From positions 1 to 64,000 of the forward strand of contig CAJQKV010000020.1 in assembly GCA_905479015.1 (NCBI GenBank): a DNA stretch of 64,000 nt. The letters are read 5' to 3'. The position numbers were made by a program, and so were the translations under genes. Of this stretch, positions 4,018 through 44,645 are shown piece after piece (position 1 is the first letter of the stretch; each line of letters starts with the position of its first letter). This DNA comes from an uncultured Cyclobacteriaceae bacterium (GTDB taxonomy: Bacteria; Bacteroidota; Bacteroidia; Cytophagales; Cyclobacteriaceae). The notes beneath the pieces are model-generated. The model saw nothing but the letters and a program-made list of their open reading frames with translations, made no database searches and had not been told where the DNA came from.

Positions 4018-4069
4018 ATTCTGTTTTGTCTAAAAGTTAAATTTTATACTGACTTTTTTAGTGGTTATC

Positions 4070-5083: not shown

Positions 5084-5112
5084 TTTGATGTTTTTAAATG
5101 GGTTACGATCCC

Positions 5113-6129: not shown

Positions 6130-6212
6130 AGTCTTCTACTTTTATTCATCTCATCGATAGATCTCTTTTAGAATTAAATGATACTCATCGAAAAAGCGGT
6201 GCAATGTGACCC

Positions 6213-7112
6213 TCATAATCCAAGTCCTTTGAGATACTCACGATTGCTCTGCGCGCATTGCTTTGGGTTGCCCATTCCAGGTAACACATCTTGCTCTACT
6301 ACGGCCCAGCCCGAATAATCCTGCCCCTTCAATTCGTCAATAAATCTCTTAAAATCAACAGCTCCCTTACCTAATTCGCAAAAAATACCGTTTTGAACGC
6401 TTGTGAAATAGTCCCATTGGTTCAAACGCGCCTTTTCGGCGACCTTGGTATCGAAATCTTTAAGGTGGATGTGCCAGATTCTTTCTTTATACTGAGTCAA
6501 AGCTTCAATGGGATTTCCCCCACCATAACTATAATGACCTGTATCTAAACATAGTCCTACTAATTGCTTATCTGTATATTCAAGTAATTTATGGATCTCA
6601 TCTGGGGTCTCAACATAACCTGCACAATGATGATGAAAGACTGTTTGAAAACCATAAGCTTCTTTTACCGCATAGGCAATTTGATTGGCTCCCTCGGCAA
6701 ATATTTCCCATGCATTAGGACCCAGTCCCATAGCTGAGGTAATATTGCCAGCATTTTTTATCCTCGCTTCTACCGCCCCATTATCATCTGCTAATACTAT
6801 TTTCGCATTCTCATAGCCAGCGTAATACATCAGCCCAGCAACTTTTAACGCATACGCAAGACCTTTGATGTGGGTATTCGAATCCTTCAAATTCACAGGA
6901 ACAAACGCCCCTATCAAATCTAATTCCCGCTTAGCTAAATTCTGAGAAAGCTGATTCGGCTGAGTAGGTAAAAAACCCCAATCTCCTAACTCCGTTCCTT
7001 GATATCCTGTTGCCCTCATTTCCTCGAGAACTTGGCCGTAGGGGGCTACTTTTCCCTCTAAGTCAAACTCAAGTACTCCCCAAGAGCATGGAGCATTGGC
7101 CAATTTTATCAT
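6213..7112 (-). CDS. iolE: inosose dehydratase-like TIM-barrel protein
   Basis: A 299-residue sugar phosphate isomerase/epimerase-type TIM barrel. Likely metal-site segments are GTELGDW (39-45), FHHHCAGY (about 158-165), CLDTGHYSYGGG (about 188-199), HIHLKDF (about 214-220) and VVEQD (about 271). The opening NAPCSWGVLEF resembles the IolE/MocC group, which dehydrates 2-keto-myo-inositol to 3D-(3,5/4)-trihydroxycyclohexane-1,2-dione. Position between the dehydrogenase genes and iolA/iolD supports that role. An inosose isomerase (IolI) role is the main alternative, but the operon would then lack a dehydratase. Confidence 0.8.
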   Translation of the reverse strand: MIKLANAPCSWGVLEFDLEGKVAPYGQVLEEMRATGYQGTELGDWGFLPTQPNQLSQNLAKRELDLIGAFVPVNLKDSNTHIKGLAYALKVAGLMYYAGYENAKIVLADDNGAVEARIKNAGNITSAMGLGPNAWEIFAEGANQIAYAVKEAYGFQTVFHHHCAGYVETPDEIHKLLEYTDKQLVGLCLDTGHYSYGGGNPIEALTQYKERIWHIHLKDFDTKVAEKARLNQWDYFTSVQNGIFCELGKGAVDFKRFIDELKGQDYSGWAVVEQDVLPGMGNPKQCAQSNREYLKGLGL

Positions 7113-7135
7113 AACAATTACGCTTTAAATATTTA

Positions 7136-8611
7136 TTAAAATTTTCTAGACCAATCTTTCGGCCATCTTTCTATGACTACTTTGGTTTGTGTGAAAAATT
7201 CAATGGCATGTCTTCCTTGACCATGCAAGTCACCGAAAAAACTATCTTTCCATCCACTAAACGGAAACTGTGCCATAGGAGCTGCTACTCCAATATTAAT
7301 ACCAATATTCCCAGCCATTACTTCATTTCGAAACTTTCGGGCACTTGCACCGCTACTTGTGAACAAACAAGCAGAATTTCCGTATTTGCTTTTATTTATG
7401 AATGAAATAGCGTCATCAACGGTATTCATATGCAAGAGACTCATGACCGGGCCAAATATTTCTGTTTCAATGACTTTCCCATCAAGCGCCAAGTTTTCTA
7501 AAATAGTTGGGGCGATGAAATTACCTTTATCATATCCAGATACTTTAGGGGTTCTCCCATCTAACAAGAGATTGGCACCTTCTTCTACACCCAAATTAAT
7601 TAAGCGATTAATTCTTGATTTACTATCAGGGGTAATCACAGGCCCCATATCTACTCCGGAGTCTAAACCAAAACCAATGTGTTTGCTTTTTGCACTTTCA
7701 TAAAGGGCCTCCCTAATTCCATTTTTTTGATCACCAACACTTAGGATGACAGAAGCGGCTAAGCATCGCTGCCCAGCACATCCATACACGCTGTCTGAGA
7801 CAATTTTAGAAGTCATTTCAATATCTGCGTCAGGAAGAATGACTACGGGGTTCTTAGCCCCTCCTTGCGCTTGCACCCGCTTTCCATATTGAGCGCCTTT
7901 GGCATATATATATTTTGCTACATCGGTGCTCCCCACAAAGCTGATCGCTTTGACCAATGAATGCTCGAGCAGCGCATCTACGGCTACCTTTCCCCCATGT
8001 ACCATATTGACCAATCCCTTAGGTAAATCTAATTGATCAATCAGATGAAATATTTTGATCATCGTCAAGGGTACTTTTTCGGATGGTTTCACCACCATAG
8101 CATTGCCACAAGCAATGGCATAAGGTAGAAACCAAAAAGTAATCATCGCTGGAAAATTGAATGGAGCAATGCAAGCGGTAACTCCCAAGGCCTGGCGGAT
8201 CATAAATTCATCAACACCACTCGCTATATCTTCAGAGAATTCACTCTGCATCAACATGGGTGTACCACAGGCAGTTTCTATGTTTTCAATGGCACGCATC
8301 AATTCTCCTTTGGATTCTTCCATAGTCTTACCCGACTCAAGGGTAATGGTCTGGGCCAAGTCCTCAAGATTTTCATCCATCAACCTCTTGAGTTTAAAAA
8401 GAGGTTGAACCCTACGCATGACCGGAACTTTTTTCCATTCTAAATGCGCTTGATGGCCTGATTTAATAGCTTGATCCATGTCTCTGGCTGACGCTGATCC
8501 GATAGGAACTTCAGCCAGCAACTCTTGTGTCGCAGGATTCAACACCTTTACCGTTGACAGATTAGCACTCGCTGTCCAGGTGTTGTCAATATAATTTTTT
8601 AATGCTTCCAT
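7136..8611 (-). CDS. iolA: methylmalonate/malonate-semialdehyde dehydrogenase (CoA-acylating)
   Basis: This 491-residue aldehyde dehydrogenase has the nucleophile Cys283 in CAGQRCLA and the QGGAKN segment (249-254) where ordinary aldehyde dehydrogenases carry a general-base Glu, a hallmark of the CoA-acylating MMSDH group. In inositol catabolism IolA converts malonic semialdehyde, NAD+ and CoA to acetyl-CoA, CO2 and NADH, the last step. Full length for the family. It lies 25 nt after iolD. The enzyme may also serve valine degradation (mmsA), but the operon context favours the inositol role. Confidence 0.92.
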   Translation of the reverse strand: MEALKNYIDNTWTASANLSTVKVLNPATQELLAEVPIGSASARDMDQAIKSGHQAHLEWKKVPVMRRVQPLFKLKRLMDENLEDLAQTITLESGKTMEESKGELMRAIENIETACGTPMLMQSEFSEDIASGVDEFMIRQALGVTACIAPFNFPAMITFWFLPYAIACGNAMVVKPSEKVPLTMIKIFHLIDQLDLPKGLVNMVHGGKVAVDALLEHSLVKAISFVGSTDVAKYIYAKGAQYGKRVQAQGGAKNPVVILPDADIEMTSKIVSDSVYGCAGQRCLAASVILSVGDQKNGIREALYESAKSKHIGFGLDSGVDMGPVITPDSKSRINRLINLGVEEGANLLLDGRTPKVSGYDKGNFIAPTILENLALDGKVIETEIFGPVMSLLHMNTVDDAISFINKSKYGNSACLFTSSGASARKFRNEVMAGNIGINIGVAAPMAQFPFSGWKDSFFGDLHGQGRHAIEFFTQTKVVIERWPKDWSRKF

Positions 8612-8636
8612 AGTATTGGATCAATAAATTTTGATT

Positions 8637-10514
8637 TTAATAATAAAATCTCTGATTTTTCTTGTGTTTTAGATACTCTTTGTACGCTTTTTGAACACTC
8701 TTCATTTGGGATGCTTCAGCAATCGGAACTTCCCACCAGGCATACCCCTCTATGTCTTGATGACGATCACATTCGGTGTAGATAACGGTAGTTTTATTTA
8801 TAGATTTAGCTTCAATCAGTGCATTTTTAATATCTTTAAAAGTTTGACATTCAATTACATGAGCCCCTAGACTTTTAGCATTACTTGCTAAATCAACAGG
8901 AAGTGTGGCATTCTTGTTTGTTTCGTCACCATCAATGAGGCCTGTCTGTTCATTTCTGTACAAAAACCGCGTACCGTAACCTTCGCTGCCAAGTGAGCGT
9001 GACAAAGATCCGATACTTTTATAGCCATCATTGTTAATTAAAATAATCGTGAGTTTAAAATTTTCCTGAATGGAGGTAACAATTTCTTGGGCAAGCATAA
9101 GATAACTCCCATCTCCTATCATCACATATATTTCTCTGGTGGGATCAGCCATTTTCGCACCCAACCCTCCAGCAATTTCATAGCCCATACAGGAATTCCC
9201 ATATTCCAAATGAAACCCTTTGCTATTTTTTGTCTTCCACAACTTATGCAAATCACCAGGTAGACTGCCTGCAGCTGAAATCATGACATCATTTTCATCT
9301 GAAAAATTATTCACGGCTCCAATAATTTCCCCTTGACTTAAGCCTTCTCCATGTCGATAATTATAAACTTTATCTACTATTTTATCCCATTTTTCATTGA
9401 ATTTTTGGGCCTTCTGACGATGATTTTTATTGACTTCAAAATCTCCTAAATGAGTCTGTAACTCTTCCAATGTAACCTTAGCATCTCCTTGCAGCATGAT
9501 TCCACCATGCTTTGCTGCATCTAATTCATAAATATTGATGTTAATGAATTTAACTTCAGGATGCTGAAAGGCAGTTTTGGAGGCTGTAGTAAAATCGCTA
9601 TACCTTGTACCAATACCTATGACCAGATCTGCCTCTCTTGCCATTTCAACTGCGCCAATGGTACCGGTAGCGCCTATGGCCCCTAAATTATGTGGATTAT
9701 CATATCTCAACGCGCCTTTACCTGCAAAGGTTTCAGCTATTGGGATACCTGTTTTATTTACGACTTTTTTCAAAACCTCAAGAGCCTCGCTATAGTGCGC
9801 TCCACCCCCCACCACAATCAGCGGTTTATAGCTTTCTTGGATCAATGCTGCGGCCATAGCCAATTGGGAAAGATCAGGTCTTGGACGTTGGATTTTCCAA
9901 ACTCTTTTTTGGAAAAGGTGCACGGGAAAGTCGAAAGCCTCAGCTTGAACATCTTGCGGTAAGCACAAGGTTACGGTCCCCGTCTCAGCGGGAGAAGTAA
10001 GCACCCTCATTACTTCAGGTAAGGATGAAATCAGTTGTTCGGGACGATTGATGCGGTCCCAATATTTTGATACCGGTTTGAAACAGTCATTTACAGAAAA
10101 ATCTTGGGAAGACGATGATTCAAGTTGTTGTAAGGCAGGCGCAACATTTCTCTTGGCAAAAATATCTCCAGGTAAAAGTAAAACAGGCAGCCTGTTGATA
10201 GTAGCACCCGCTGCCGCGGTTATCATATTGGTCGCACCCGGACCAATAGAGGTAGTACAGACAAAAGTACTCAAGCGATTTTTCATCTTGGCATAGGCTG
10301 CGGCGGTATGCACCATAGCCTGTTCATTGCGACATTGATAATATTTAAGATCGCTTTGTTGTTGTAAAGCTTGACCTATTCCAGCAACATTACCATGACC
10401 AAAAATACCAAAGCATCCCGCAAAAAATTTATGCTCAACACCATCTCGCGCTACGTATTGTTGATTAAGAAATTTTATGACTGCTTGCGCTACAGTTAAT
10501 TTTATAGTACTCAT
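8637..10514 (-). CDS. iolD: 3D-(3,5/4)-trihydroxycyclohexane-1,2-dione hydrolase
   Basis: A thiamine-diphosphate enzyme of 625 residues that opens the cyclitol ring to give 5-deoxy-glucuronate. The N-terminal domain has the ThDP-activating Glu in YQCRNEQAMV. The C-terminal domain has the ThDP/Mg motif GDGSYLM followed by LINNDG. I set the start at 10514 (MSTIKLTVAQ) because AAGGAGGG lies 7 nt upstream, one of the few textbook ribosome sites in the window. A longer in-frame start inside iolC would overlap that gene and matches no family N-terminus. Only 1 nt separates the iolC stop from this start. Confidence 0.93.
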   Translation of the reverse strand: MSTIKLTVAQAVIKFLNQQYVARDGVEHKFFAGCFGIFGHGNVAGIGQALQQQSDLKYYQCRNEQAMVHTAAAYAKMKNRLSTFVCTTSIGPGATNMITAAAGATINRLPVLLLPGDIFAKRNVAPALQQLESSSSQDFSVNDCFKPVSKYWDRINRPEQLISSLPEVMRVLTSPAETGTVTLCLPQDVQAEAFDFPVHLFQKRVWKIQRPRPDLSQLAMAAALIQESYKPLIVVGGGAHYSEALEVLKKVVNKTGIPIAETFAGKGALRYDNPHNLGAIGATGTIGAVEMAREADLVIGIGTRYSDFTTASKTAFQHPEVKFININIYELDAAKHGGIMLQGDAKVTLEELQTHLGDFEVNKNHRQKAQKFNEKWDKIVDKVYNYRHGEGLSQGEIIGAVNNFSDENDVMISAAGSLPGDLHKLWKTKNSKGFHLEYGNSCMGYEIAGGLGAKMADPTREIYVMIGDGSYLMLAQEIVTSIQENFKLTIILINNDGYKSIGSLSRSLGSEGYGTRFLYRNEQTGLIDGDETNKNATLPVDLASNAKSLGAHVIECQTFKDIKNALIEAKSINKTTVIYTECDRHQDIEGYAWWEVPIAEASQMKSVQKAYKEYLKHKKNQRFYY

Positions 10515-10515
10515 A

Positions 10516-11535
10516 TCAAAACCCTCCTTTTGCTTCAATAAATAATAATGATTCCTCGAGGGTAGGCATAAAATTGGCACAGCCGGGTTGTAGTACTACT
10601 TGTGCACCACTCGCGTTACCCATCCGACATGACTTATACATATCCCATCCTTCAAGATAGCCATAAATAAATCCGCTGGCGAAAGCATCTCCTGCACCCA
10701 ATACATTCAGCACCTCTACGGGGAAACCTGGTACTTTTTCTGGTTCTTTATTTAACTGATGGATGGTAACACCCTCTGATCCGTTTTTTACAACGAGAAT
10801 TTTCACGCCCAATGCCAGAATACGCTGGATTGCCTGATCTAAATTACCAGATATCGTTGGTGCTGATATTTGCTGGTCTGAGATATTAATCTGTTCTTCG
10901 GAATCAAGTATTGTAGCTAAAACTTCTTCTTCAGTCCCAATGGCAATCGTGACCCTTGGCAATATAGACCGAGTAGTAATTCCAAAAGACCTCACATCGC
11001 TCCATTGATCTGCTCTAAAATCTAAATCCAATATGACATCAACATCATTTTTAACCGCCTTCTCAAGGGCATATAAAACGGCACTTCTACTAGGTTCTAC
11101 ATTCAATGCAGTCCCTGAAATTTCCAATATTTTAAAATTTTCAATCTGCGCTTGGTCCACATGATCAATGGTCAATTGACTGTCGGCACAATTGTCTCTA
11201 TAGAACACCAAGGGAAACTTGTCAGGAGGTTGAATGCCCAAAAGTACCGCACTACTTCTTGCATGGCTGAGTTTAGGAATGAATTCAACATTAACTTGCT
11301 CTTTAGTCAGAAAATTCAAGATAAAGTCTCCCACTTTGTCAGTACCTACTGCTGTCAGAAGTGCCGCATTGAGTCCCAGCCTACTGCAGCCTACGGCTAT
11401 ATTAAGTGGCGATCCACCCACGAAGGCATCAAAGCCTTTGATATCCACAAAATCTGCTCCTATGCTTTGGGAGTATAGGTCAATCGAAGACCTCCCCATC
11501 GTTATTACGTCCATCGTAAGTTTTACTTTTCCCAT
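10516..11535 (-). CDS. iolC: 5-dehydro-2-deoxygluconokinase
   Basis: A PfkB-family sugar kinase of 339 residues from the chosen start (MGKVKLTMDV). It has the N-terminal substrate strand GRSSIDLYS, a GGSPLNIAVG segment and the C-terminal PfkB signature GAGDAFASG (about 280-288) with the catalytic Asp. It phosphorylates 2-deoxy-5-keto-gluconate before aldol cleavage. The frame is open further upstream to 11643, but that part lies inside iolB and does not resemble a kinase N-terminus, so I place the start at 11535, 7 nt after the iolB stop. Confidence 0.92.
   Translation of the reverse strand: MGKVKLTMDVITMGRSSIDLYSQSIGADFVDIKGFDAFVGGSPLNIAVGCSRLGLNAALLTAVGTDKVGDFILNFLTKEQVNVEFIPKLSHARSSAVLLGIQPPDKFPLVFYRDNCADSQLTIDHVDQAQIENFKILEISGTALNVEPSRSAVLYALEKAVKNDVDVILDLDFRADQWSDVRSFGITTRSILPRVTIAIGTEEEVLATILDSEEQINISDQQISAPTISGNLDQAIQRILALGVKILVVKNGSEGVTIHQLNKEPEKVPGFPVEVLNVLGAGDAFASGFIYGYLEGWDMYKSCRMGNASGAQVVLQPGCANFMPTLEESLLFIEAKGGF
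10522..10529 (-). promoter_or_regulatory. strong Shine-Dalgarno site of iolD
   Basis: On the minus strand the sequence AAGGAGGG ends 7 nt before the iolD ATG and sits inside the last codons of iolC. Most other genes here have only A-rich leaders, as usual in Bacteroidota, so this site both fixes the iolD start and suggests efficient re-initiation at that junction. Confidence 0.75.
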
Positions 11536-11542
11536 TTTTTCT

Positions 11543-12415
11543 TTATTTAGCTGAGACCATAGGAATCCGCGAATCTTTTCCTGACCAGGAATCATAAATC
11601 CATTCATGATCTGGATCATTGGTATTGGCCAGTGACTGATCACTTCCTGTCAAAAAATTAAGATAATAAATATTATAACCATGACCAGCAACTACAGGAT
11701 GATATCCTTTGGGTACCATCACCACATCATTATTCCTGGCTACTGCTATTTCGTCAAGACTTCTATCTCCAGTATATATTTGTTGAATAGCATATCCCTG
11801 AGGCTTATCTGTCTTATAAAAATAAGTTTCTTCTAAACGGGCTTCTATTAGATTTCCGTCATTATCCAAAATGCGTTCATCATGCTTGTGTGCAGGAAAG
11901 GAGCTCCAATTTCCAGAAGGCGTATATACTTCTACTGAAACCAAGCGTTGACAATCAAATCCGGGCTCAATCAATGAATTTATTTGCCTAGTAGCGTTGT
12001 CACCTCCGCGTATTTCAATGACGGACTTAGTTGGCTCTTTGAATTGGGCCGGATGATCTTCTGTGGTTTCGCACCACCCCAAAGCAATATCTAGAATTTC
12101 AGATTCGGCGGTAAGCTCAAATTCCGTATTACGAGATAAATACAGCGTATGCGCAATGCCCTCAAAGACATGCTTACGGCCATTCTTTGTTTTCCAGTTA
12201 CCTTGATCTGTTTTAACTGAATAATCGCCTGACAGTAAAATAATGCCGTACTCATTCTCTCCTGTAAAACCTTTCCATACCTGGCCTTTTTTAAGAATGC
12301 GGGCATTGAAGTTTAGAAATTCCCAACCTGCATCTTCAGCAATTATTTCTTGATAAATGCCCTCTTTAGCTTGGGAAGATTTCATCAATAATGGATATTT
12401 TGAATCTCTGTTCAT
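11543..12415 (-). CDS. iolB: 5-deoxy-glucuronate isomerase
   Basis: A 290-residue two-domain cupin of the KduI/IolB family, which isomerises 5-deoxy-glucuronate to 2-deoxy-5-keto-gluconate. The metal-site region is visible as PAHKHDER (about 175-183) followed by LEETYFYK, and a C-terminal segment PKGYHPVVAGHGYNIYYLN is characteristic of IolB. Length is normal for the family. The gene is 14 nt downstream of iolJ and just ahead of iolC. Confidence 0.92.
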   Translation of the reverse strand: MNRDSKYPLLMKSSQAKEGIYQEIIAEDAGWEFLNFNARILKKGQVWKGFTGENEYGIILLSGDYSVKTDQGNWKTKNGRKHVFEGIAHTLYLSRNTEFELTAESEILDIALGWCETTEDHPAQFKEPTKSVIEIRGGDNATRQINSLIEPGFDCQRLVSVEVYTPSGNWSSFPAHKHDERILDNDGNLIEARLEETYFYKTDKPQGYAIQQIYTGDRSLDEIAVARNNDVVMVPKGYHPVVAGHGYNIYYLNFLTGSDQSLANTNDPDHEWIYDSWSGKDSRIPMVSAK

Positions 12416-19522: not shown

Positions 19523-22500
19523 CTATTCTTTTATGAATTTCACAGTTCGAATTTGCCCATTGATATTTTGAAGATGGACGATATATACACCTGCTTCCAG
19601 TTGGCTTATATTGATATTTGAATGAGTTGACTTGAGTATTTCTTTTCCTGATAACTCATAAAGGGTGGCCTCTTTAAATGCTTTCATTTTGATATTTAAG
19701 GTACTCTTTGATGGATTGGGATATATCATATCCTCGGCCTCTATAACAGACAAAATAGATCCATCATCCAAATCAATTAAACTAATCCTCATTATGGCAT
19801 CATCGTAACCTTCACCATCTTGGACCAAAATAGCAAGGTTAAAGACAGGTGTGACTTCGTAATCCAGTGGATGGGTATTGGCCACAGTAATTGCTCCACT
19901 TTTACTATCAATAGCAAAGGCTTGGTTGCTATTACCACTCGTGATCGCGTAGGTTAAAACATCTCCGTCTGCATCTTCAGCGATGACCATGGCCACTAAA
20001 TAATCCTTTGGACTATTTTCCTCTACTAAAAAATTTTGATCGTAGATAACAGGTAATGAATTAAAATCTTCAGCTATATCATCTGTAAGATTAATTATAA
20101 TGAGTGCCTGATCAGTCAACACCCCATCAGAGGCTTCAATAGTTAACTCAAAGACAGGTGTTATCTCAAAGTCAATCATCACGCTATTAGCAATCGTTAA
20201 TTGACCGCTCAGGCTATCTAATTCGAAAGCTTCATTTAGATTTCCGCTTATAATACGGTAAGACAAAACATCATCATCTGGATCATTGGCTCTAATTGTA
20301 GTTACTAAAGTTCCATTGGGCGTATTTTCAGGCAATAAGGCATTGCCAGCAATCATCTCAGGTTCTCGATTAGAATCATAGATCCAATTAAATACGGTCT
20401 GATCGGTATTGCGATTATGTGCGGCATCTTCGAAGGTATTTATATCGACGGCTATAGATTTCGTATCGCTCGACCCGCTTGATAAGAAAAAGGCTGAATA
20501 GATCTTATTATTGATTTTAGAAAAACTAGATAATCCTCCCCCTTCTACCTCAATATCTTCTAGATCAAAATCAGTAGTCTCCTCGCTAATGGTAAAGGTA
20601 AAGGTTAAGGAGCCTTCTCGAGTGCTGTCTCCCTCAGATAGGATTTGATTTTCCTCTGTAGCGGTAATCGCTATGGCAGGTGGTGTTCCATCGTAAGTCC
20701 AATCAAACCTTCTGATGGTTAGGTTCTCATTTCCTCCGGCATCGAAAAAAGATGCCGTATCGATCTTAATGGAGCACAATCCATCAGTTAATGGGGTGAA
20801 TATTGCTGAATATAATTCACTACTCGTTGATTTAAATTCACTTATGATCCCACCGACAACTTGCAGATCTTCTGAAACAAATCCCCTCACGATTTCATTG
20901 AACGTAAAAGTTAACATCAGGCTTTTATCATTGGTTGTTTGATCATTCGAAAGTTCGATTTGGCCATTGCTTGCAGTTATAGATAGCCGAGGTGCTTTGC
21001 TGTCATAGGTCCAAATAAACGGTCTGGCCTCCATATTATTGGTGCCCTTATCATCCGTAAAAGTATTGGCAGCCACATCAATAGTGATCATACCATCTAT
21101 CGATGGTGTAAAAATCGCCGAGTAAACAGAAGCACTTGAACTAGAAAAATCAGTCAGCGTCCCTCCAGTCACGGTCACATCTTCCAAAGTAAAATTAACG
21201 GTAGGACTGCTACTTGTAAAATTGACCAAAAAGTCAGAGTAATTGTTGGTTCCACCATTCAGCACAGTAAAGTTATCATCTATAGCCGTTATCGCCATGG
21301 AGGGTCCTTGACTGTTATAAGTCCAATTAAATGTTAATATACTATCATTGCCATTTCCAGCTAGATCGAAAAAAGAATTTGCCAAAAGGTCAATGTTTAT
21401 AATTCCAGGATCTGAGGGCGTGACTGTAGTTATATAGAGGGTACTACTTATCTCATTAAAACTACTTAGAATGCCCCCTGAAACGGTGATATCTTCCTCA
21501 TCAAAACCCGTTATTGCCTCACTGCTCGTGAAGGTCAGCAATAAATTAACATCATTAGTTGTCATTCCATTTACTATGGTATCTTTTCCGCTGCTAACCA
21601 ATAAAGAAATAGTGGGAGTGATACCGTCATAAACCCAATTAAAACGGTTAGCGGAAATATTTCCATTTCCCGCTGGGTCCGTAAATTGATTGCTATTTAT
21701 ATCAATGGTTATGGGCCCACTCGATGAAGGCTTTAAAAGGGCCGTGTATTCTGTACCACTCAATGAAGTTAGCGTAGAGCTAGAAAAATCACTCAGCTCT
21801 CCACCGGTAACGGAGATATCAGCTACTTCAAAATCAGTCGTCGATTCACTAATTACGAAGGTGAGCGTTAAGGTGCTCTCATTACTCGTGGAACCTTCAT
21901 TTATGGCTACCCCAGCAGCTTCAGCGCTGATCGTTATGGTTGGGGCTGTACCATCATACGTCCAATCAAATGAGTTTGCTGCGGTGTTATCATTGCCCGC
22001 ATAATCCGTAAAGGTATCCGCTCCAACATTAATAGTGGTGGACCCACTACTAGATGGGGTGAAAGTAGCTGTATAAATGGAATTACTAGAAGCTGAAAAA
22101 TTACTTAATGTCCCTCCAGAGACTGTGATGTCTTCTAGCACAAAATTGGTCGTAGCATCACTGGTAGTAAATACGATGGTCAAGGCAGCATGATTGGTCG
22201 TCGTATCATCAGCAATCGCCTCATTATTATCATTAACTGCCGTGATGCTAATAGAGGGTGGCAATCCATCGTAAGTCCAGTTAAACTGACTAGATGCTGT
22301 GTTCCCATTACCAACTGCATCATTAAAAACACCTGCATTGACATCAATCGTAGTGGCTCCCTCTGCATTGGGAATGAATTGGGCAGTATAAACAGTGCTA
22401 CTGGTGGCCAGAAAATCACTGATAATACCACCTCCCACCGTAATATCACTAACCCCAAAATCGTCAGTAGCCTCACTAATGGTAAAAGTCAATGTCAGCG

Positions 22501-24625
22501 TACTATCCTTAGAAAATGAACCATCATTTATGGATGTATTATCTGTATTTTTAGCTGCAATAGCTATAGTAGGACTTACGCCATCATAGACCCAATTAAA
22601 CTGACTTGCCGCATTATTGTTATTGCCTGACCCATCTGTAAAATTATTAGCAGCAACATCGACGGTAGTTGAACCACTTGAGGAAGGTGTAAAAGTGGCT
22701 GTGTAAATAGTACTACTCGTTGCTGTAAAACTACTTAAAGCTCCTCCTGAGATCGCAACATCGCCCATACTAAAATTAGAGGTAGCCTCACTACTTGTAA
22801 AGGTAAGGGTAAGGGTGGCATCATTGGTGGTCGAACCATCACTGATTGCAGAACTTCCACTTTTAGCTGTGATGATCATGGTGGGTCCATCGCCATCATA
22901 AATCCAGTTGAACTGATCAGCTGCTGTATTTCCATTTCCTACGGCATCAGTAAATTTATTTGCAGGTATATCAATAGTCGTTGCCCCTTTTGAAGAGGGT
23001 GTAAATGTAGCAAAGTAAACGGTACTGCTTGAAGTTGCGAAATTATTCAGGGTACCACCCGTCACAACAATATCCCCCATTACAAAATTTGTCGTAGGTT
23101 CACTACTGGTAAAGATAAGATTTATAAGACCATTATTCGTTGTGTCACCGTCATTGACGACGTTGATTCCCTCACTTGCTGTAATCGTCATGGTTGGAAC
23201 AATCCCATCATAAGTCCAATTAAATTGACTTGCTGCGGTATTGTTATTTCCAGCTTGATCTGTGAAAATATCAGCTGCTACGTCAATTGTGGTAGATCCA
23301 CTCGATGTCGGCGTAAATGTGGCGGTATATATATAACTACTTACTGCAGTAAATCCACTAATTGAACCCCCATCCACCGTAATATCTCCGACCACAAAAT
23401 TATTGATAATCTCACTAATTGTAAAGGTGATGGCCAAGGTTCCATCATTGGTACTAGATCCATCAAATACAGCATTACTCCCATTATGGGCAGTGACGGT
23501 AATCGTAGGAGCTGTATTATCAGCAAATTCGTACATCGCAATATTCCCAAGATTCCAAGCTCCCCCTATTATATCCATGTCGCCATCTACATCTATATCT
23601 ACAGGATAAATTACAGTAGCTCCATCAAAATCACCATCAATAGTACGCTTGGTGAAAACTTGAGCACCATTATTCTCAAACCATGCTACATCACCATCAT
23701 AATACGCCGTTGCCAAAATATCTAAGTCACCATCTCTATCCATATCTACTGGAAAAACAGAAATGGCCCCATCAAAATTCGATTCAATGATGTTTTTAGA
23801 GAAAGATTGGGAACCGTTATTTTGATACCAAGCAATATCCCCCGCTATAAAAGCTGAACTTACAACATCCATATCTCCATCTCCATCCATATCTGCAGCA
23901 TGAACACCCCAAGCGCCATCAAAATCACCATCAATAGAACGTTCAGTGAAAACTTGAGCACCATTATTCTCAAACCATGCTACATCATCATCATAATACG
24001 CCGTTGCCAAAATATCTAAGTCACCATCTCTATCCATATCTACAGCTTTGACATAACCTTCTGAACCATTAAAATTCACTTCAATTGTGTGTTTGGTGAA
24101 AGATTCCGAACCATTATTTTCAAACCATACAACATCTTCATCATCATTGAGGTTGTATGCCGAACCCACCACATCAATATCCCCATCTCCGTCCATATCC
24201 ACTGGATAAGCAGAGGAAGCACCATCAAAATTGGATTGAATGGTTTGCTTTGTAAAAGTTTCTGATCCATTATTCTCATACCATACTATAGCATTTTCAG
24301 AAAAGCCAGCAGAGACGATATCCAGATCGCCATCTCCATCCATATCAATGGGATGCACAGCCCAGGCTCTGTCAAAGTCCCCATCAATAATGTGTTTCGT
24401 AAAAGATTGAGCCCCATTGTTCTCAAACCAGGCAATATCGTTATCATTCGCAGCAGCGCCTACTAAATCTATATCTCCATCCTCATCCAAATCAATAGGG
24501 AATAGAGAAATCACCCCATTAAAATTCGATTCAATGGTTTGCTTCGATTGGCTTGAATATTGTTGAGCCCATCCAGACATAGGAAGTAGGAAGGTGAAAA
24601 GTAAGAAGTAATAAAGTTGGTTCAT
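19523..24625 (-). CDS. giant T9SS-secreted FG-GAP / Ig-like / cadherin repeat protein
   Basis: This 1700-residue protein starts with a signal peptide (residues 1-21). Residues about 22-372 hold seven FG-GAP/VCBS repeats with DxDxDGD calcium-loop motifs (a probable propeller). Residues about 372-1417 hold ten Ig-like repeats of about 104 residues, each opening with a PTITITA-type strand and closing with FNWxYDG. Two cadherin-like domains follow (PENTPNG and EENSPKD, with DxDxD loops), then a T9SS type A sorting domain (YPNPSKSTLNI, ELSGKEIL, LEAGVYIVHL) to the C-terminus. It is probably a long, calcium-stiffened cell-surface or released adhesin; the ligand is unknown. It is transcribed alone. 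Confidence 0.93.
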   Translation of the reverse strand: MNQLYYFLLFTFLLPMSGWAQQYSSQSKQTIESNFNGVISLFPIDLDEDGDIDLVGAAANDNDIAWFENNGAQSFTKHIIDGDFDRAWAVHPIDMDGDGDLDIVSAGFSENAIVWYENNGSETFTKQTIQSNFDGASSAYPVDMDGDGDIDVVGSAYNLNDDEDVVWFENNGSESFTKHTIEVNFNGSEGYVKAVDMDRDGDLDILATAYYDDDVAWFENNGAQVFTERSIDGDFDGAWGVHAADMDGDGDMDVVSSAFIAGDIAWYQNNGSQSFSKNIIESNFDGAISVFPVDMDRDGDLDILATAYYDGDVAWFENNGAQVFTKRTIDGDFDGATVIYPVDIDVDGDMDIIGGAWNLGNIAMYEFADNTAPTITVTAHNGSNAVFDGSSTNDGTLAITFTISEIINNFVVGDITVDGGSISGFTAVSSYIYTATFTPTSSGSTTIDVAADIFTDQAGNNNTAASQFNWTYDGIVPTMTITASEGINVVNDGDTTNNGLINLIFTSSEPTTNFVMGDIVVTGGTLNNFATSSSTVYFATFTPSSKGATTIDIPANKFTDAVGNGNTAADQFNWIYDGDGPTMIITAKSGSSAISDGSTTNDATLTLTFTSSEATSNFSMGDVAISGGALSSFTATSSTIYTATFTPSSSGSTTVDVAANNFTDGSGNNNNAASQFNWVYDGVSPTIAIAAKNTDNTSINDGSFSKDSTLTLTFTISEATDDFGVSDITVGGGIISDFLATSSTVYTAQFIPNAEGATTIDVNAGVFNDAVGNGNTASSQFNWTYDGLPPSISITAVNDNNEAIADDTTTNHAALTIVFTTSDATTNFVLEDITVSGGTLSNFSASSNSIYTATFTPSSSGSTTINVGADTFTDYAGNDNTAANSFDWTYDGTAPTITISAEAAGVAINEGSTSNESTLTLTFVISESTTDFEVADISVTGGELSDFSSSTLTSLSGTEYTALLKPSSSGPITIDINSNQFTDPAGNGNISANRFNWVYDGITPTISLLVSSGKDTIVNGMTTNDVNLLLTFTSSEAITGFDEEDITVSGGILSSFNEISSTLYITTVTPSDPGIINIDLLANSFFDLAGNGNDSILTFNWTYNSQGPSMAITAIDDNFTVLNGGTNNYSDFLVNFTSSSPTVNFTLEDVTVTGGTLTDFSSSSASVYSAIFTPSIDGMITIDVAANTFTDDKGTNNMEARPFIWTYDSKAPRLSITASNGQIELSNDQTTNDKSLMLTFTFNEIVRGFVSEDLQVVGGIISEFKSTSSELYSAIFTPLTDGLCSIKIDTASFFDAGGNENLTIRRFDWTYDGTPPAIAITATEENQILSEGDSTREGSLTFTFTISEETTDFDLEDIEVEGGGLSSFSKINNKIYSAFFLSSGSSDTKSIAVDINTFEDAAHNRNTDQTVFNWIYDSNREPEMIAGNALLPENTPNGTLVTTIRANDPDDDVLSYRIISGNLNEAFELDSLSGQLTIANSVMIDFEITPVFELTIEASDGVLTDQALIIINLTDDIAEDFNSLPVIYDQNFLVEENSPKDYLVAMVIAEDADGDVLTYAITSGNSNQAFAIDSKSGAITVANTHPLDYEVTPVFNLAILVQDGEGYDDAIMRISLIDLDDGSILSVIEAEDMIYPNPSKSTLNIKMKAFKEATLYELSGKEILKSTHSNINISQLEAGVYIVHLQNINGQIRTVKFIKE
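23622..24043. repeat. near-identical 128-bp direct repeat inside the FG-GAP region
   Basis: Bases 23622-23749 and 23916-24043 are almost the same, differing at a handful of positions. They are offset by 294 nt (98 codons, two FG-GAP blades), so blades 3-4 and 5-6 share a cassette. The other blades are only similar at protein level, which points to recent duplication or gene conversion between blades. Confidence 0.85.
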
Positions 24626-24972: not shown

Positions 24973-25875
24973 ATGGTACACGGAACGCACAACGCTGAAC
25001 ATGATGAACGCAATGATGAGATACTCATTTTTATTAATGGCGCATTTATGAAAAGGGCTGAAGCTAAAATATCGGTATTTGACAGTGGCTATCTGGTGGG
25101 AGATGGTATTTGAGAAGGAGTTCGATTACATCATGGACGCTTGGTCTTTATTAAAGATCACTTAAACAGATTGTGGAAAGCCGCTAGAGCAACCTCTATT
25201 CAGCTCCCTTTTAACAAAGAAGCATTGATACAGCACATCCTTGACACCGTAGCTAAAAATGAGATGATTAATGACGTTCATATCCGAGTGATGATTACTC
25301 GAGGTATTAAAAAAACTCCCTCACAAGATCCCAGACTTACTTTATCAGGACCCAACTTGGTCATCATTGCAGAGCATAAAAAAGCGGCAACCTCTACGCT
25401 CAAAGAAGGGATTAAATTATTTACAAGTACCATCCGTCGGAGATCTCCCGACTATCTGGATCCCAAATTGAACTGTCATAGTAAATTACATGAAGTGCAA
25501 GCCTTGATTCAAGCCATTGAAGCTGGGGGTGATGAGGCGTTGATGCTAGATATTAATGGTTTTGTGAGTACTTGTAATGCAACTAATTTTTTTATAGTCA
25601 CGGATGGAGAAGTATGGACGTCTACCGATGCCTATTGCATGAATGGCATTACAAGATCTAAAGTGATTGATTTATGCCATAAAAATGGTGTCATTTGCCG
25701 TGAAAAAAACTTCTCACTATATGATGTATACAGCGCAGATGAAGCCTTTGTGACAGGTACGTTCGGAGGCCTGACACCCGTTCGTCGTGTTGATGGAAAA
25801 TTGATTGGCAACTTCAATCTTATCCTTACCCAAAGGCGGCAAGCATTATACTATGAAATGATCACGGCTTCCTAA
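24973..25875 (+). pseudogene. class IV aminotransferase interrupted by one in-frame TGA
   Basis: Reading from ATG 24973 gives a complete 300-residue PLP-dependent class IV aminotransferase (branched-chain or D-amino acid type) except for TGA at 25111-25113, codon 47. The context is GDGI-stop-EGVR, where relatives have GDGVWEG with Trp, so a single G-to-A change of TGG explains it. Downstream the frame is intact: LDPKLNCHSKL (probable PLP-lysine region), DEALMLDINGFVSTCNATN and GTFGGLTPVR. No good restart codon follows the TGA in frame except a weak TTG at 25141, which would lose the N-terminal domain. Recent nonsense mutation, sequencing error or readthrough are the options. Confidence 0.85.
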
Positions 25876-26116
25876 GAAAAACCTATCCAGAACTCCACTG
25901 ATTTTCCTTTAATAAATCATTATAAAATTGATTATTTCAAAACATTGATATGGCAGTATTGGCTTAAATCATAAGTTTACGAGATAATTTCCATGATAAA
26001 TAAAATTTCATTCGAGAAACCTATTCCCTCCCAAACAATTGAAACTTTCAATGTGTAAATTACTCTTTAAAGCAAATCAAGTATGCATATGAAAGTAAAT
26101 CATGAACAACTAAAAG

Positions 26117-26809
26117 GTGAATTTTAAGCAACGATCTGAGCTGAAAGAGCTCATGGATGATTTGGACTGCGATGGACCTGTAGTGGACCAAAGTTTAGCA
26201 GAGCTGGACACTATTAATTATTGGTTGGGAGGAGATTGGGTGAGCTTAAAAGGGCTTAAAAAATTAATCGATAAAAATAAAAACCCTTTTTCTATTATTG
26301 ATTTAGGATGCGGAAGCGGTACTCTTTTGGCGCAAATGGCTCATGAATATCAAGATCAATTGAATTCAGGAGTAGGCATTGATGCCAATGCCTATATACT
26401 AAAATATGCTAGAGACGCCCAAGCAGCATTTAAACAATTGTCCTTCATTGATGTAAATGTACTGGATGCAGCTGAAAAAGATTTTAATTGTGACATTTTG
26501 CACGCCAGTCTATTTTTACACCATTTTAATCATGATGAATTGGTCATGTTATTTAAAATATTTAGGCATCAGGCAAGTCAAGGAATGGTCATTAGCGATT
26601 TACATCGTCACTGGTTGGCCTATTATAGCATAAAATACTTGACCCAATGGTTTTCAAAATCAGCTATGGTTCAATACGATGGTCCCTTGTCGGTGATGCG
26701 TGGTTTTCGTCGTAAAGAATGGATACGTATATTTGAAGCAGCAGGCATCAAGGATTATCAGATCCGTTGGAAATGGGCTTTCAGATGGCAAATCATCATT
26801 AAATTTTAA
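26117..26809 (+). CDS. class I SAM-dependent methyltransferase, PKS-cluster associated
   Basis: A 230-residue methyltransferase with the SAM-binding motif IIDLGCGSGTLLA (60-72), an acidic residue at the end of strand two (GVGIDAN) and the later strand DILHASLFLHHF. The C-terminal RRKEWIRIFEAAGI is typical of the group. I use the GTG at 26117 (MNFKQRSELKELMDD) because relatives begin with a similar RS..KELMDD segment; an ATG at 26153 is the alternative. It ends 4 nt before the FAD oxidoreductase and is probably translated with it. By analogy with SrsB of Streptomyces griseus it may O-methylate an alkylresorcinol or quinol; that is inference. Confidence 0.8.
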   Translation: MNFKQRSELKELMDDLDCDGPVVDQSLAELDTINYWLGGDWVSLKGLKKLIDKNKNPFSIIDLGCGSGTLLAQMAHEYQDQLNSGVGIDANAYILKYARDAQAAFKQLSFIDVNVLDAAEKDFNCDILHASLFLHHFNHDELVMLFKIFRHQASQGMVISDLHRHWLAYYSIKYLTQWFSKSAMVQYDGPLSVMRGFRRKEWIRIFEAAGIKDYQIRWKWAFRWQIIIKF

Positions 26810-26813
26810 TTAT

Positions 26814-27926
26814 ATGTACGATGTAGCAATTCTCGGTGGAGGATTGGCAGGATTGACCAATGCTTATCTCCTGGCTAAAGCAGGTTATAAAGTCATTCTA
26901 TTTGAAAAAGGTAGTTATCCACAACATAAGGTTTGTGGAGAATATATCAGCAATGAGGTGCTTCCTTTCCTAAAAAAACATGATTTATACCCCAAAAATT
27001 TTAGGCCTAGTCAAATTAATAAGTTTCAATTGACCACTGAAGTAGGTAAATCTTTAGACTTAGCCCTAGACACAGGTGCCTTTGGGATCAGTAGATTTGC
27101 TTTTGATGATTATTTATATCAAAAGTGTAAGGCTCTGGGCGTTGAATGTTTAACCCAGACCAAAATTCATGATTGTGTTTTTGAAAATCCGCATTTTAAT
27201 ATATCCTCTTCAAAAGGCAGGTACCAAGCGCATTATGCTGTGGGTGCCTTTGGCAAAAAAAGTAATTTAGATCGCGTCTTAAATCGCAGTATAAAGCCTG
27301 AAAAATCATCTTATTTAGGAGTTAAATATCATGTGCGTACTGATTTTGCCATAGATACAGTTGCTCTACACAATTTTCGTGGCGGTTACTGTGGCGTGAA
27401 TAAAATTGAAGATGATGTCTATAATATTTGCTACTTAACCAAAGGCAACAATTTCAAGCAATCAGGATCCATTGAATCTATGGAAACGGACATATTATTT
27501 AAGAATCCCTATATCAGAGAATTATTTAAATCAAGTGATTTTATTTTTGATAAACCTCTCATTATTAATCAGATAAACTTTAATAAAAAACAATTAATTG
27601 AAGATTATGTAATCATGTGTGGTGATACGGCAGGCTTGATTACTCCTTTATGTGGAAACGGAATGGCCATGGCCATACATTCAGGGAAATTATTGGCTGA
27701 AATCATCATTCAAAAAAAAGCCCGGCCTGATCTCCGTCGAGAAGTACAAGATCTATATAAATTTCAATGGAATCGATGGTTTAGCAATCGACTCATGTGG
27801 GGAAGAAACCTACAACTTCTATTTGGAAATCACAGCCTGAGTAATGCCACTTTAGCCTTAGCTAAATCTGTTCCTATGCTGGCACAGAAGCTCATCTCAA
27901 AGACACACGGAAAGTCATTTAGCTGA
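26814..27926 (+). CDS. FAD-dependent oxidoreductase (geranylgeranyl reductase / flavin hydroxylase type)
   Basis: A 370-residue flavoprotein with the N-terminal dinucleotide motif ILGGGLAGLTNAYLL (6-20), FEKGSYPQHKVCGEY (typical of the geranylgeranyl-reductase and halogenase-like branch) and the second FAD motif CGDTAGLITPLCGNG (about 268-282). The start at 26814 puts Met right before the first beta strand; an upstream extension would overlap the methyltransferase. It converges on the HDAC gene with only 5 nt between stops. It could hydroxylate an aromatic polyketide (as SrsC does) or reduce a prenyl chain; sequence does not decide. Confidence 0.85.
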   Translation: MYDVAILGGGLAGLTNAYLLAKAGYKVILFEKGSYPQHKVCGEYISNEVLPFLKKHDLYPKNFRPSQINKFQLTTEVGKSLDLALDTGAFGISRFAFDDYLYQKCKALGVECLTQTKIHDCVFENPHFNISSSKGRYQAHYAVGAFGKKSNLDRVLNRSIKPEKSSYLGVKYHVRTDFAIDTVALHNFRGGYCGVNKIEDDVYNICYLTKGNNFKQSGSIESMETDILFKNPYIRELFKSSDFIFDKPLIINQINFNKKQLIEDYVIMCGDTAGLITPLCGNGMAMAIHSGKLLAEIIIQKKARPDLRREVQDLYKFQWNRWFSNRLMWGRNLQLLFGNHSLSNATLALAKSVPMLAQKLISKTHGKSFS

Positions 27927-27931
27927 CTTTA

Positions 27932-28834
27932 TTAGAAAAATATCTGTTGCGCTAATTTGAAGGTATTTGCATGGGCATCTATGATATCTTTGATATTTGG
28001 AGAATAACCCCCTCCCATACATACCACCATAGGTATTTGTTCGCGATGGGCGAATTCAAGAACACATTGATCTCTTCTTTTACAACCCGCTTTCGTCAAT
28101 CCAAGTCGACCTAATTTATCTGTTGCTAGGACATCTACGCCTGCTTGATAAAAAATGAAGTCTGGATGAAAATGTTGCGTTACTTCATTGAGGTGTTGTA
28201 TTAACAAGGCTAAGTAGGTTTCATCCTTACAACCATCCTCAAGTCCAATATCTAAATCACTTCGTTCTTTTCTGATGGGATAATTTTTTGCACCATGCAT
28301 ACTGAAGGTAAATACGCGAGGCTCATTTTTAAAAATTTCAGCCGTTCCATTGCCTTGATGCACGTCTAAATCAATAATAAGTACTCGCTTGGCCTTTTCC
28401 TTTCTTAATAAATAGTTCGCGCCAATGGCCTGGTCGTTAAGCATACAGAAGCCTTCGCCGCGATCGGAAAACGCATGATGGGTGCCTCCAGCAATATTGA
28501 ACGATATGCCATGTGCCAACGCATAGGTGATACACTGCAGCGTTCCACCGGCAATATGAATTTCTCTTTCAACCAGCCGTCCACTTAGTGGAAACCCTAT
28601 CGCCCTGATCTCTAATGGGGAAAGATTAAGTTGGATTAAACGATGCCAATAATGTACGTTGTGAATTTCTAAAATATCCTTTTCTAAAGCATTTTTGGGG
28701 TGAAAGAAATTTTCCTTTACAACCACGCCTTCGTGTAATAGTTGTTTAGGCAACAACTCATACTTGAGCATAGGGAAACGATGCTTTTCAGGTAAAAGAT
28801 GTGCGTAAGTTTCAGAAAAGGCAATTTTAAGCAT
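27932..28834 (-). CDS. histone-deacetylase-family hydrolase
   Basis: A 300-residue zinc deacylase of the HDAC/AcuC/APAH superfamily. Active-site signatures are GGTHHAFSDRGEGFC (116-130, tandem His119/His120), IDLDVHQGNG (154-163, zinc ligands Asp157 and His159) and AGVDVLATDKLG (231-242, third ligand Asp234). The DRGEGFC form is closest to the class IV (HDAC11-like) branch, whose eukaryotic member removes long acyl chains. It overlaps the UbiA gene by 8 nt and is translated from the same message, so its substrate may belong to the lipid cluster; that is inference, and many bacteria carry such enzymes in unrelated places. Confidence 0.9.
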   Translation of the reverse strand: MLKIAFSETYAHLLPEKHRFPMLKYELLPKQLLHEGVVVKENFFHPKNALEKDILEIHNVHYWHRLIQLNLSPLEIRAIGFPLSGRLVEREIHIAGGTLQCITYALAHGISFNIAGGTHHAFSDRGEGFCMLNDQAIGANYLLRKEKAKRVLIIDLDVHQGNGTAEIFKNEPRVFTFSMHGAKNYPIRKERSDLDIGLEDGCKDETYLALLIQHLNEVTQHFHPDFIFYQAGVDVLATDKLGRLGLTKAGCKRRDQCVLEFAHREQIPMVVCMGGGYSPNIKDIIDAHANTFKLAQQIFF

Positions 28835-29705
28835 TGAAAATAATCAAGAGAAGAAAAAAAGTATTCAGGCAGAGTGCTGAAAGCCGATTCAACTTCATGG
28901 TGTGTTCAAAATCAGCCAAATCTATGCTTTTTATGACCTTTTGATACCAGAAGATATAATATATGAGAAGCGGGATCATCAAGATGAGGTAAAGTAACAT
29001 CGTCTGTAAATCATGATAATAGAAAAAATAGCTGACATAACCCAAAGCTGTAATGACAAATCCAAGAGCCGTAAAATGAAACGTACCTAGGACACCCAAT
29101 CTGAGGCTTAAGGTAAAATCACCTCTTTCCCTATCTTCCTTATGTTGATATACTTGTGTGATGGGATAGGCACTCATAAGCATCATAGTGGTTAATAATG
29201 CAGGAATTTGAATCATAGACGTAGTAAGTCTTGATATAGGTATATCATGTATGGTCCAATAAGTAACTAAAAACACGAAATAACCCTGAAAAACAGATAC
29301 AATAATCCAGCTGACTATAGGCCTCTTTTTTAATCGAATCGAAGGATGACTGTAGGCTTTACTAATGAGACCATATATGAGCATGGAAATGGCTGTTGTA
29401 AGATGTATACATAAGGCCAATAAAATACCGATAACATCTAAAGCAATCGAAAAATAGTATAGTTCTTTCGTTACTTTAGGCGGATATTTAATTCCTGCAA
29501 TACTTTCCTTGTCTTTATCAAAATAGGAATTAAAACCATTACTTGCCGGATAAATAAAAAAATGCCAACAAAAAAATAACACAAGGGCATCTATCCAATT
29601 AATGGATTGGGGCGTTATGGCCAAAGTAAATAAAAAAATGGGCAGTAAATTAAAACTAAAAGTAATTCTTAAATGTTTTAACGTTGAATGGGAAATTAAG
29701 GACAT
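28827..29705 (-). CDS. UbiA-family prenyltransferase
   Basis: A 292-residue integral membrane protein with about eight or nine hydrophobic helices. Both Asp-rich prenyl-diphosphate/Mg sites are present: NGFNSYFDKDKES (56-68) and QVYQHKEDRERGD (184-196). The family moves a polyprenyl group onto an aromatic or other acceptor in the membrane. The upstream neighbour on the other strand is a type III polyketide synthase, so a resorcinol or pyrone product would be a plausible acceptor. It does not look like a dedicated menaquinone (MenA) or haem (CtaB) enzyme, though I cannot exclude that without comparison. Confidence 0.88.
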   Translation of the reverse strand: MSLISHSTLKHLRITFSFNLLPIFLFTLAITPQSINWIDALVLFFCWHFFIYPASNGFNSYFDKDKESIAGIKYPPKVTKELYYFSIALDVIGILLALCIHLTTAISMLIYGLISKAYSHPSIRLKKRPIVSWIIVSVFQGYFVFLVTYWTIHDIPISRLTTSMIQIPALLTTMMLMSAYPITQVYQHKEDRERGDFTLSLRLGVLGTFHFTALGFVITALGYVSYFFYYHDLQTMLLYLILMIPLLIYYIFWYQKVIKSIDLADFEHTMKLNRLSALCLNTFFLLLIIFNA

Positions 29706-29808
29706 TTCGGGTATTAGGCTATATCAAACTTGTGCATATTACAGATAAACGCATCAAATAATTCAATTTTTAGGTTCAAAAATATAACATTAACTCAATT
29801 TTAATTCT

Positions 29809-30882
29809 ATGTCTGCTTACATTAATGCGATTGGTACTGCGGTTCCTAATTCGAAGATCTCTCAAAGTAAAATTGCTACTTATATGAAGCAGCATATTGA
29901 GTTCAACGAAAAGCAATCCCATCAATTAGATATAATCTATAGAGCTTCGGGCATTGATTACAGATATTCTATTTTACCTGACTTCCTTCAAACAACAGAA
30001 ACTCCAGGCTTCATCATGCATGGTACAGAGCCTAGCCTCAATGATCGTATGAAGTTGTATGAAATAGAAGCTCCTGTCTTGGCTATTCAATCAATCTTAG
30101 AGTGCATGAAAGGGAAGGACCTCAATCACGTAACGCACCTTATTACCGTAAGCTGCACCGGAATGTATGCGCCTGGGATTGACTTGGAAATTGTTGAACA
30201 ATTAAAAATGAGGACCGATATCCATAGAACGGCCATCAATTTTATGGGTTGTTATGGTGTTTTTAATGCTTTAAAACTGGCCCAATCGATATGCGAAGCA
30301 TCGGCAACGGCTCAAGTGCTCATTGTTTCTGTAGAATTATGTACGCTCCATTTTCAACGTAAGAATGATGAATTCTTAAATTTATCGCAAGCGCTTTTTT
30401 CAGATGGTGCCTCGAGCTGTTTGGTTACAAATAACGAAACACCCAATGCTTTTTTAATAGATCAATTTCATTGTGATATCCTCTTCAAAGGAAAAAATGA
30501 AATGTCATGGAAAATAGGTCAAAATGCTTTTGACATGGTATTAACTCATGAAGTGGCTAAATTGATTGAGGAAAATGCACAAAGTGCAGTATCAAAATTG
30601 CTCGACAAAGTCCCTTTTAATTTTTCTGAAATAAGCCACTATGCCCTACATCCTGGAGGTAAAAGTATTCTTAAAGCCTTAGAGCATAACTTAAACCTGC
30701 CAAAAGAGCATAATGTACACGCTTATCATATTCTAAAAAACTATGGAAATATGTCTTCTGCTACAATATTATTTGTTTTGAAAAAATTATTAGATGATCA
30801 CAATCAGGTAAAAGGTCCGGTTTTGTCTATGGCTTTTGGTCCGGGGTTAACTATCGAGACTATGCTGCTTAAACTCAAATAA
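29809..30882 (+). CDS. type III polyketide synthase (chalcone/stilbene synthase family)
   Basis: A 357-residue homodimer-type ketosynthase with the full catalytic triad: Cys148 in NFMGCYG, His281 in YALHPGGK and Asn314 in NYGNMSS. The C-terminal AFGPGLTIE loop is also family-typical. Such enzymes extend an acyl-CoA starter with malonyl-CoA and cyclise the chain to a resorcinol, pyrone or acylphloroglucinol. The starter and ring type cannot be read from sequence. It is divergent from the UbiA gene with about 100 nt between starts and ends at the bidirectional terminator at 30881-30912. Confidence 0.93.
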   Translation: MSAYINAIGTAVPNSKISQSKIATYMKQHIEFNEKQSHQLDIIYRASGIDYRYSILPDFLQTTETPGFIMHGTEPSLNDRMKLYEIEAPVLAIQSILECMKGKDLNHVTHLITVSCTGMYAPGIDLEIVEQLKMRTDIHRTAINFMGCYGVFNALKLAQSICEASATAQVLIVSVELCTLHFQRKNDEFLNLSQALFSDGASSCLVTNNETPNAFLIDQFHCDILFKGKNEMSWKIGQNAFDMVLTHEVAKLIEENAQSAVSKLLDKVPFNFSEISHYALHPGGKSILKALEHNLNLPKEHNVHAYHILKNYGNMSSATILFVLKKLLDDHNQVKGPVLSMAFGPGLTIETMLLKLK

Positions 30883-44133: not shown

Positions 44134-44637
44134 TTAAATAATTTCTATTATCTCTACTTCAAAGATAAGGTTGGCATTACTAGGAATAGTGGTTCCTCCA
44201 CCTTGGCATCCATAACCCAATAGAGAAGGGATATACAGCATTATTTTCCCTCCCTCCTTAATCAAAGGAATACCTATTTTCCATCCATCAATAACGGCAT
44301 ATAGCGGTAATTCTATCCCATCAGTATTTTCATCAAACAAATTATTATTTTCCAACAAGGTCCCCCTATAGGTAACATTTACCGTACTATCTACCGTCGG
44401 TCTTCCTCCTTCTCCTTCTTCAAGAATAACATATCGAAGTCCTGATTCGTCTATTTGTGCGGTGATGCCCTGTTCGCTCAAATATTCATCAATGAGCACA
44501 GCATCGATAGCCATTTGCTCAGTATAAGGGAGTTCAGTAAAACATGGGTTATTATAATAGCTGTTATTACTGTCATCTGTACAAGATACAAAGAGCTGCA
44601 GGGTGGCCAAAATAGCAAGGGTAATTATATTTTTCAT
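44134..44637 (-). CDS. FKBP-type peptidyl-prolyl isomerase lipoprotein
   Basis: A 167-residue protein with a lipoprotein signal (LFVSCTDD, Cys at 19) and one FKBP domain over about residues 60-167 (VNVTYRGTLL, PLIKEGGKIMLYIPSLLGYG, NANLIFEVEIIEI). It probably speeds proline isomerisation in proteins passing through the envelope. It lies 8 nt after trmB and is the last gene of that run. Confidence 0.9.
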   Translation of the reverse strand: MKNIITLAILATLQLFVSCTDDSNNSYYNNPCFTELPYTEQMAIDAVLIDEYLSEQGITAQIDESGLRYVILEEGEGGRPTVDSTVNVTYRGTLLENNNLFDENTDGIELPLYAVIDGWKIGIPLIKEGGKIMLYIPSLLGYGCQGGGTTIPSNANLIFEVEIIEII

Positions 44638-44645
44638 CTAAGAGG

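Follow-up and report, generated by a model that had tools for sequence, protein, structure and literature searches.

An in-frame TGA in an aminotransferase-like gene of an uncultured Cyclobacteriaceae bacterium: a probable young pseudogene and possible orphan of a conserved two-gene unit

Introduction

How should a lone TGA be read when it stands inside a frame that is otherwise open? The question is raised by a class IV aminotransferase-like gene in the genome of an uncultured Cyclobacteriaceae bacterium (GCA_905479015.1). The original prediction, made from the sequence alone, described an aminotransferase gene with TGA in place of a conserved Trp codon. It saw no decay in the remainder of the gene and proposed a very recent event, a sequencing error or a site of readthrough as explanations, with genome-wide recoding considered unlikely. 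A comparison with close relatives was suggested as a check. In the present analysis, the stop is considered together with the remainder of the gene, its fate in related species and its usual gene neighbourhood.

Sequence material

The window, i.e., the whole stretch of DNA that was analysed, comprises 64 kb from the start of contig CAJQKV010000020.1, which has a length of 110 kb. The genome has a size of 2.93 Mb in 51 contigs, with a completeness of 99.88%. The homolog alignment has 106 rows, made up of 80 loci of genome_contigs and 26 loci from a family search, eight of the 26 being duplicate rows of the 80. Rows L001-L003 represent G005, G006 and G002, which are species of the window's own genus, and dropping rows of at least 97% identity leaves 94 rows besides the window. 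The genus set consists of ten genomes including the window's own. Their completeness ranges from 67 to 99.88%, with six of the ten at 90% or more.

The interrupted frame

The gene lies on the + strand at 24973-25875. Its frame has 301 codons including the terminal TAA, corresponding to 300 residues from the ATG, and contains one internal stop, a TGA at codon 47 (25111-25113, + strand). No other codon interrupts the frame between ATG and TAA. Homologs have Trp at the position in 106/106 rows, and TGG is found in 80/80 of the fetched loci, which were the best-ranking ones among 438, in the context GDG(I/V)WE(G/A). In the family search, 99 of 390 genomes hold a homolog at E ≤ 1e-60, and among these 99 matches the window's is the only one with a stop. 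Both the conserved Trp codon and the single interruption claimed by the original prediction are confirmed by this comparison with relatives. For the part after the stop, the nearest named relatives are Flammeovirgaceae bacterium UBA4465 (90-91% identity) and MED636 (84%), both marine Bacteroidota assemblies.

A fair control for stops is given by the ORFs of G005 mapped on the window, as opposed to window genes, which were themselves chosen as open frames. Thirty-four G005 ORFs (13,745 codons) match the window, and two of them meet a window stop. One of the two is the interrupted gene itself. The other starts before 26700, so that its first codons overlap the end of the adjacent methyltransferase frame; it is an over-long start call of the G005 ORF and indicates no damage in the window. 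In the assembled sequence, the TGA at codon 47 thus stands alone. No internal stop occurs in the 28 other window genes either, a result which is partly built in, as these genes had been picked as open frames.

The stop could be a base-call or consensus error, or the base of a minority strain, in a gene that is otherwise intact. One base accounts for it, the remainder of the frame is open, and the genome is an assembly of many contigs. The control speaks against such an error, since no other real stop was met in the window among the matched ORFs. Two further lines of evidence, from the remainder of the gene and from related genomes, bear on the same explanation.

Further changes in the window copy

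The absence of decay in the remainder of the gene was not borne out. At codon 157 (25441-25443, + strand) the window has Arg and the homologs have Gly in 106/106 rows. At codon 186 (25528-25530, + strand) the window has Gly, and the homologs have Ala in all 106 rows. At codon 289 (25837-25839, + strand) the window has Arg in a column otherwise occupied by Leu (99 rows), Ile (5) and Val (2). With G006 as outgroup, G157R, A186G and L289R are all changes of the window branch, the first two at invariant columns. Judged against the 94 other rows, the window departs from otherwise invariant columns at three places if the stop is counted and at two if it is not. Among these 94 rows, 84 show no such departure, seven show one and three show two (L003, L075 and L105). 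Departures of this kind are hence also found in copies whose frame is open, which counts somewhat against reading them as decay. The chance of at least two hits at invariant columns among nine missense changes is about 0.002 at the background rate, in a rough test that was devised after the changes were known and that relies on half of the differences from the nearest row as its proxy. Missense changes at invariant columns that are found only in the window make a lone sequencing error less likely.

Selection on the gene also seems to have been relaxed. The dN/dS between the window and G005 is 0.347, the highest of the 29 genes compared. Polarised counts, which differ slightly between per-codon and per-base versions, give 10 silent and 10 missense-or-stop changes on the window branch vs 183 and 66 in 11 neighbour genes (p 0.037; p 0.064 without counting the stop), and 8 silent and 16 missense-or-stop changes on the G005 branch vs 223 and 124 in neighbour genes (p 0.004). 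G005 keeps an open copy with an excess of missense changes, and its missense ratio is indistinguishable from neutral (p 0.23-0.49). The window branch, with 9 missense and 10 silent changes, lies below the neutral missense expectation (p 0.009-0.043). This shortage of missense changes indicates that selection held over much of the window branch, or still holds, and that the inactivation would be fairly recent. In this respect the original prediction, which had listed a very recent event among its options, is supported.

Fate of the gene in the genus

Open copies of the gene were found in G005, G006 and G002, and the copy with TGA in the window genome. In G008 and G009, a stretch of approximately 750 bases (25041-25789, + strand) is absent, with the same junction, which lies at short similar repeats. 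The sequence of G008 runs directly from the left flank, ending at 25040, into the right flank, starting at 25790, and G009 has the same junction (25049 and 25790). As the two genomes have other small changes in common besides the junction, the deletion is most readily read as one event, shared by descent or exchange. A close homolog was not found in G001, G003, G004 and G007, two of which are less than 90% complete, and an empty site was not seen in these four. The gyrA tree places the window genome beside a group formed by G005, G008 and G009 (support 100; 57 for G008 with G009), which points to at least two inactivations among these close species.

That G008 and G009 have lost this gene through a deletion is a further argument against a base error in the window. 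Together with the solitary nature of the stop and the window-only changes at conserved sites, it leaves such an error an unlikely explanation.

Two other Aminotran_4 genes, both without stops, are present in the window's genome. One is over the ilvE_II cut-off and the other over the ilvE_I cut-off.

Origin of the stop

The best explanation is a recently inactivated and dispensable gene, i.e., a young nonsense pseudogene, to which we attach a probability of about 0.8. The marks of a nonsense pseudogene, namely an in-frame stop absent from orthologs and relaxed selection or further damage, are found here. A base change would have turned the conserved Trp codon into TGA. Translation would then stop after 46 of the 300 residues, and no working protein would be expected. 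The gene was already dispensable in the genus, as shown by the deletion in G008 and G009 and by the drifting open copy in G005. Bacterial nonsense pseudogenes, such as those of Belinky et al. 2021 (PMC7918605), likewise have a single stop in a frame that is open elsewhere, are confined to one species and show a dN/dS that is raised but below 1. Unlike in those cases, relatives of the window genome lost the gene by deletion, and the genus is without the usual partner of the gene (see below), which suggests a cause.

Leaky readthrough of the TGA by the ordinary tRNA-Trp might yield a little full-length protein, so that the gene would still be useful. The window branch is under the neutral missense ratio, and Belinky et al. 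argued that many in-frame stops in bacteria fall in genes with dN/dS < 1; both points are in favour of readthrough. Other evidence makes it very unlikely. Missense changes fall at invariant sites, and the stop is not shared by the other 98 of the 99 family matches. RNA structure after the stop is no more than expected by chance (z 0.01), so that structure-driven readthrough was rejected. A suppressor-like tRNA-Trp was rejected as well. In the tRNA-Trp, positions 9 and 24 (counted by hand) are the ordinary A and G, and the anticodon stem comprises five pairs with G-U at the top; it shows none of the suppressor features given in the excerpted part of PMC13092985. Nothing in these data points to programmed readthrough at codon 47, one of the options originally listed.

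Reassignment of TGA to Trp in the window genome has the position of the TGA in its favour and can otherwise be dismissed, in line with the original prediction, since a prfB homolog (RF2) is over its cut-off, 7 of the 29 window genes tallied end in TGA, the 34 mapped G005 ORFs reveal no further TGA at a Trp position in the window, and the tRNA search (30 matches among the 150 of 199 candidates scored) gave one ordinary tRNA-Trp(CCA), no second near-identical tRNA-Trp and no UCA anticodon.

Read as the trace of a young pseudogene, the stop at codon 47 is ordinary as such. It should not count as recoding, and the gene should be annotated as a probable pseudogene. The part that deserves attention is the two-gene unit from which the gene came.

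A protein subfamily without the catalytic lysine

The part after the stop matches the Pfam family Aminotran_4 (PF01063) with 136.3 bits vs a cut-off of 28.5 (E 1.9e-39). The family assignment behind the name aminotransferase is therefore sound, and the activity that the name implies is putative: at codon 167 (25471-25473, + strand), Asn stands, in 106/106 rows, where canonical class IV aminotransferases carry the lysine that binds PLP. This catalytic lysine has a defining role in working class IV aminotransferases such as IlvE and DAAT, and the window protein, with Asn167, is without it. Asn167 aligns with the Lys in the IKSLNY motif of 5cm0, 5e25 and 5mqz, which are archaeal-type branched-chain aminotransferases; we take this Lys to be the PLP-binding one. 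Position 165 varies between Arg (82 of the 106 rows) and Lys (24) and hence offers no substitute. Lys171 is invariant in the 106 rows and is replaced by Arg in 7z79. Among the 13 NCBIfam models listed, none is over its cut-off, the best score being 243.1 bits vs 363. The window protein belongs to the same Pfam family as IlvE and D-amino-acid transaminase but differs from them in the Asn at the catalytic position and in staying below every listed NCBIfam cut-off.

Among solved structures, the best matches are 7z79 (E 5e-95, residues 10-297) and 9j32 (E 4e-94), both named 'Aminotransferase, class 4'; in contrast to both, the window copy is interrupted. 7z79 is a protein of Variovorax paradoxus in which the catalytic lysine is known to be missing. 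It shares with the window protein both the Asn in place of that lysine and the WEGVR stretch. The Lys found in 9j32 where 7z79 has Asn presumably marks an engineered variant. In distant homologs from the family search (38-45% identity), the position is occupied by His in 10/10 sampled of 65 (L188-L197).

A conserved Sulfotransfer_5 partner

Clustering of the fetched loci revealed a downstream gene of one family on the same strand in 73/80. With tblastn, this partner was detected downstream in 75/80 fetched loci and in 26/26 family loci; the pair adjoins, for instance, at L029:4731-5456 and was seen among loci L004-L080 and L101-L126. The five loci without the partner are L001-L003, which belong to the genus, and L014 and L036, which have almost no downstream sequence. 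The partner is a Sulfotransfer_5 protein (PF19798, 130 bits vs 23.2), for which no NCBIfam match and no solved relative was obtained at 0.001. It occurs in 111 of the 390 family genomes at E ≤ 1e-20. One of these partner genes, at G115:C1:670215-670916, has an internal TAG, the sole stop among the 111 matches listed.

Pairing was counted in the 95 genomes outside the genus that have the aminotransferase-like gene, 30 with close and 65 with distant homologs. All 30 genomes with a close homolog have the partner immediately downstream of it in the same orientation. Among the 65 with a distant homolog, 59 have the partner on the same strand at most 3 kb upstream (54 at most 250 bases); in the remaining genomes it is on another contig (4), far away (1) or not found (1, G280). 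The occurrence of the same partner in two gene orders argues for a functional link, and the stable pairing suggests that both proteins act together. Both branches of the two-gene unit seem to be without the lysine.

In the genus, the partner was found in 0/10 genomes at E ≤ 0.001, with the same query that gave the matches in the family genomes. The gap before the methyltransferase gene (25876-26116) is where the Sulfotransfer_5 gene sits in close homologs outside the genus. Weak tblastn matches in the window and in the fetched genus stretches (E 0.016 to 0.24), mostly within the methyltransferase gene, were considered as partner remnants and taken as chance.

The absence of the partner from the genus is the probable cause of the gene's dispensability. 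It would have come first and removed the need for the gene that later became a pseudogene. In the simplest history, loss of the partner from the genus would have been followed by the decay, now under way, of the remaining gene. Alternatively, a single gene may have arrived by transfer without its partner, given that the best matches outside the genus (L004 to L011, 71-74%) are mostly labelled Flavobacteriales or Crocinitomicaceae. Decay of the lone half in the genus fits a joint action of both proteins, and the window gene is possibly one member of a conserved two-gene unit that has been left without the other.

A broader proposal is more doubtful and is put forward tentatively. The window gene might be what remains of a Bacteroidota system of two proteins, without description in the literature searched, in which a lysine-less protein of the aminotransferase fold, from the Asn or the His branch, works only with a Sulfotransfer_5 protein. 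One half alone would have become useless in the genus and would be in the process of being lost there along several routes at once. At the level of titles and listings, the literature searched contained no paper on the lysine-less protein or on its pairing with Sulfotransfer_5. If the proposal is true, the genus offers a natural experiment showing the mutual dependence of both proteins. The lysine-less members of this enzyme fold, for which the literature searched gives no known role, would then also gain a partner that can be put to the test.

Other observations in the window and its homologs

Several other features were noted. Among the homologous loci, L025 is a contig labelled Euryarchaeota archaeon with a gene of the Bacteroidota type (67% identity); the assembly may be mislabelled or mixed. 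A surface-type protein of 1700 residues (19523-24625) contains Big_12, FG-GAP, cadherin and secretion-tail domains as well as internal repeats, and has 82% protein identity to G005. Genes for a methyltransferase, a geranylgeranyl-reductase-like oxidoreductase, a UbiA protein and a chalcone/stilbene-synthase-like protein lie close together at 26117-30882 and perhaps form a small lipid or polyketide cluster. The UbiA-family gene (28827-29705) has a dS of 0.435 to G005, with 0.143 and 0.250 for its neighbours, and is perhaps a recombined stretch. At 44134-45308, two ORFs stand out from the rest of the window by a much greater divergence from G005. The first has 79.5% identity, and the best piece of the second matches residues 81-220 only. 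An inositol-catabolism-type run is found at 2437-12415, comprising a sodium symporter, a Gfo/Idh/MocA dehydrogenase, a xylose-isomerase-like protein, an aldehyde dehydrogenase, a ThDP enzyme, a PfkB kinase and KduI/IolB.
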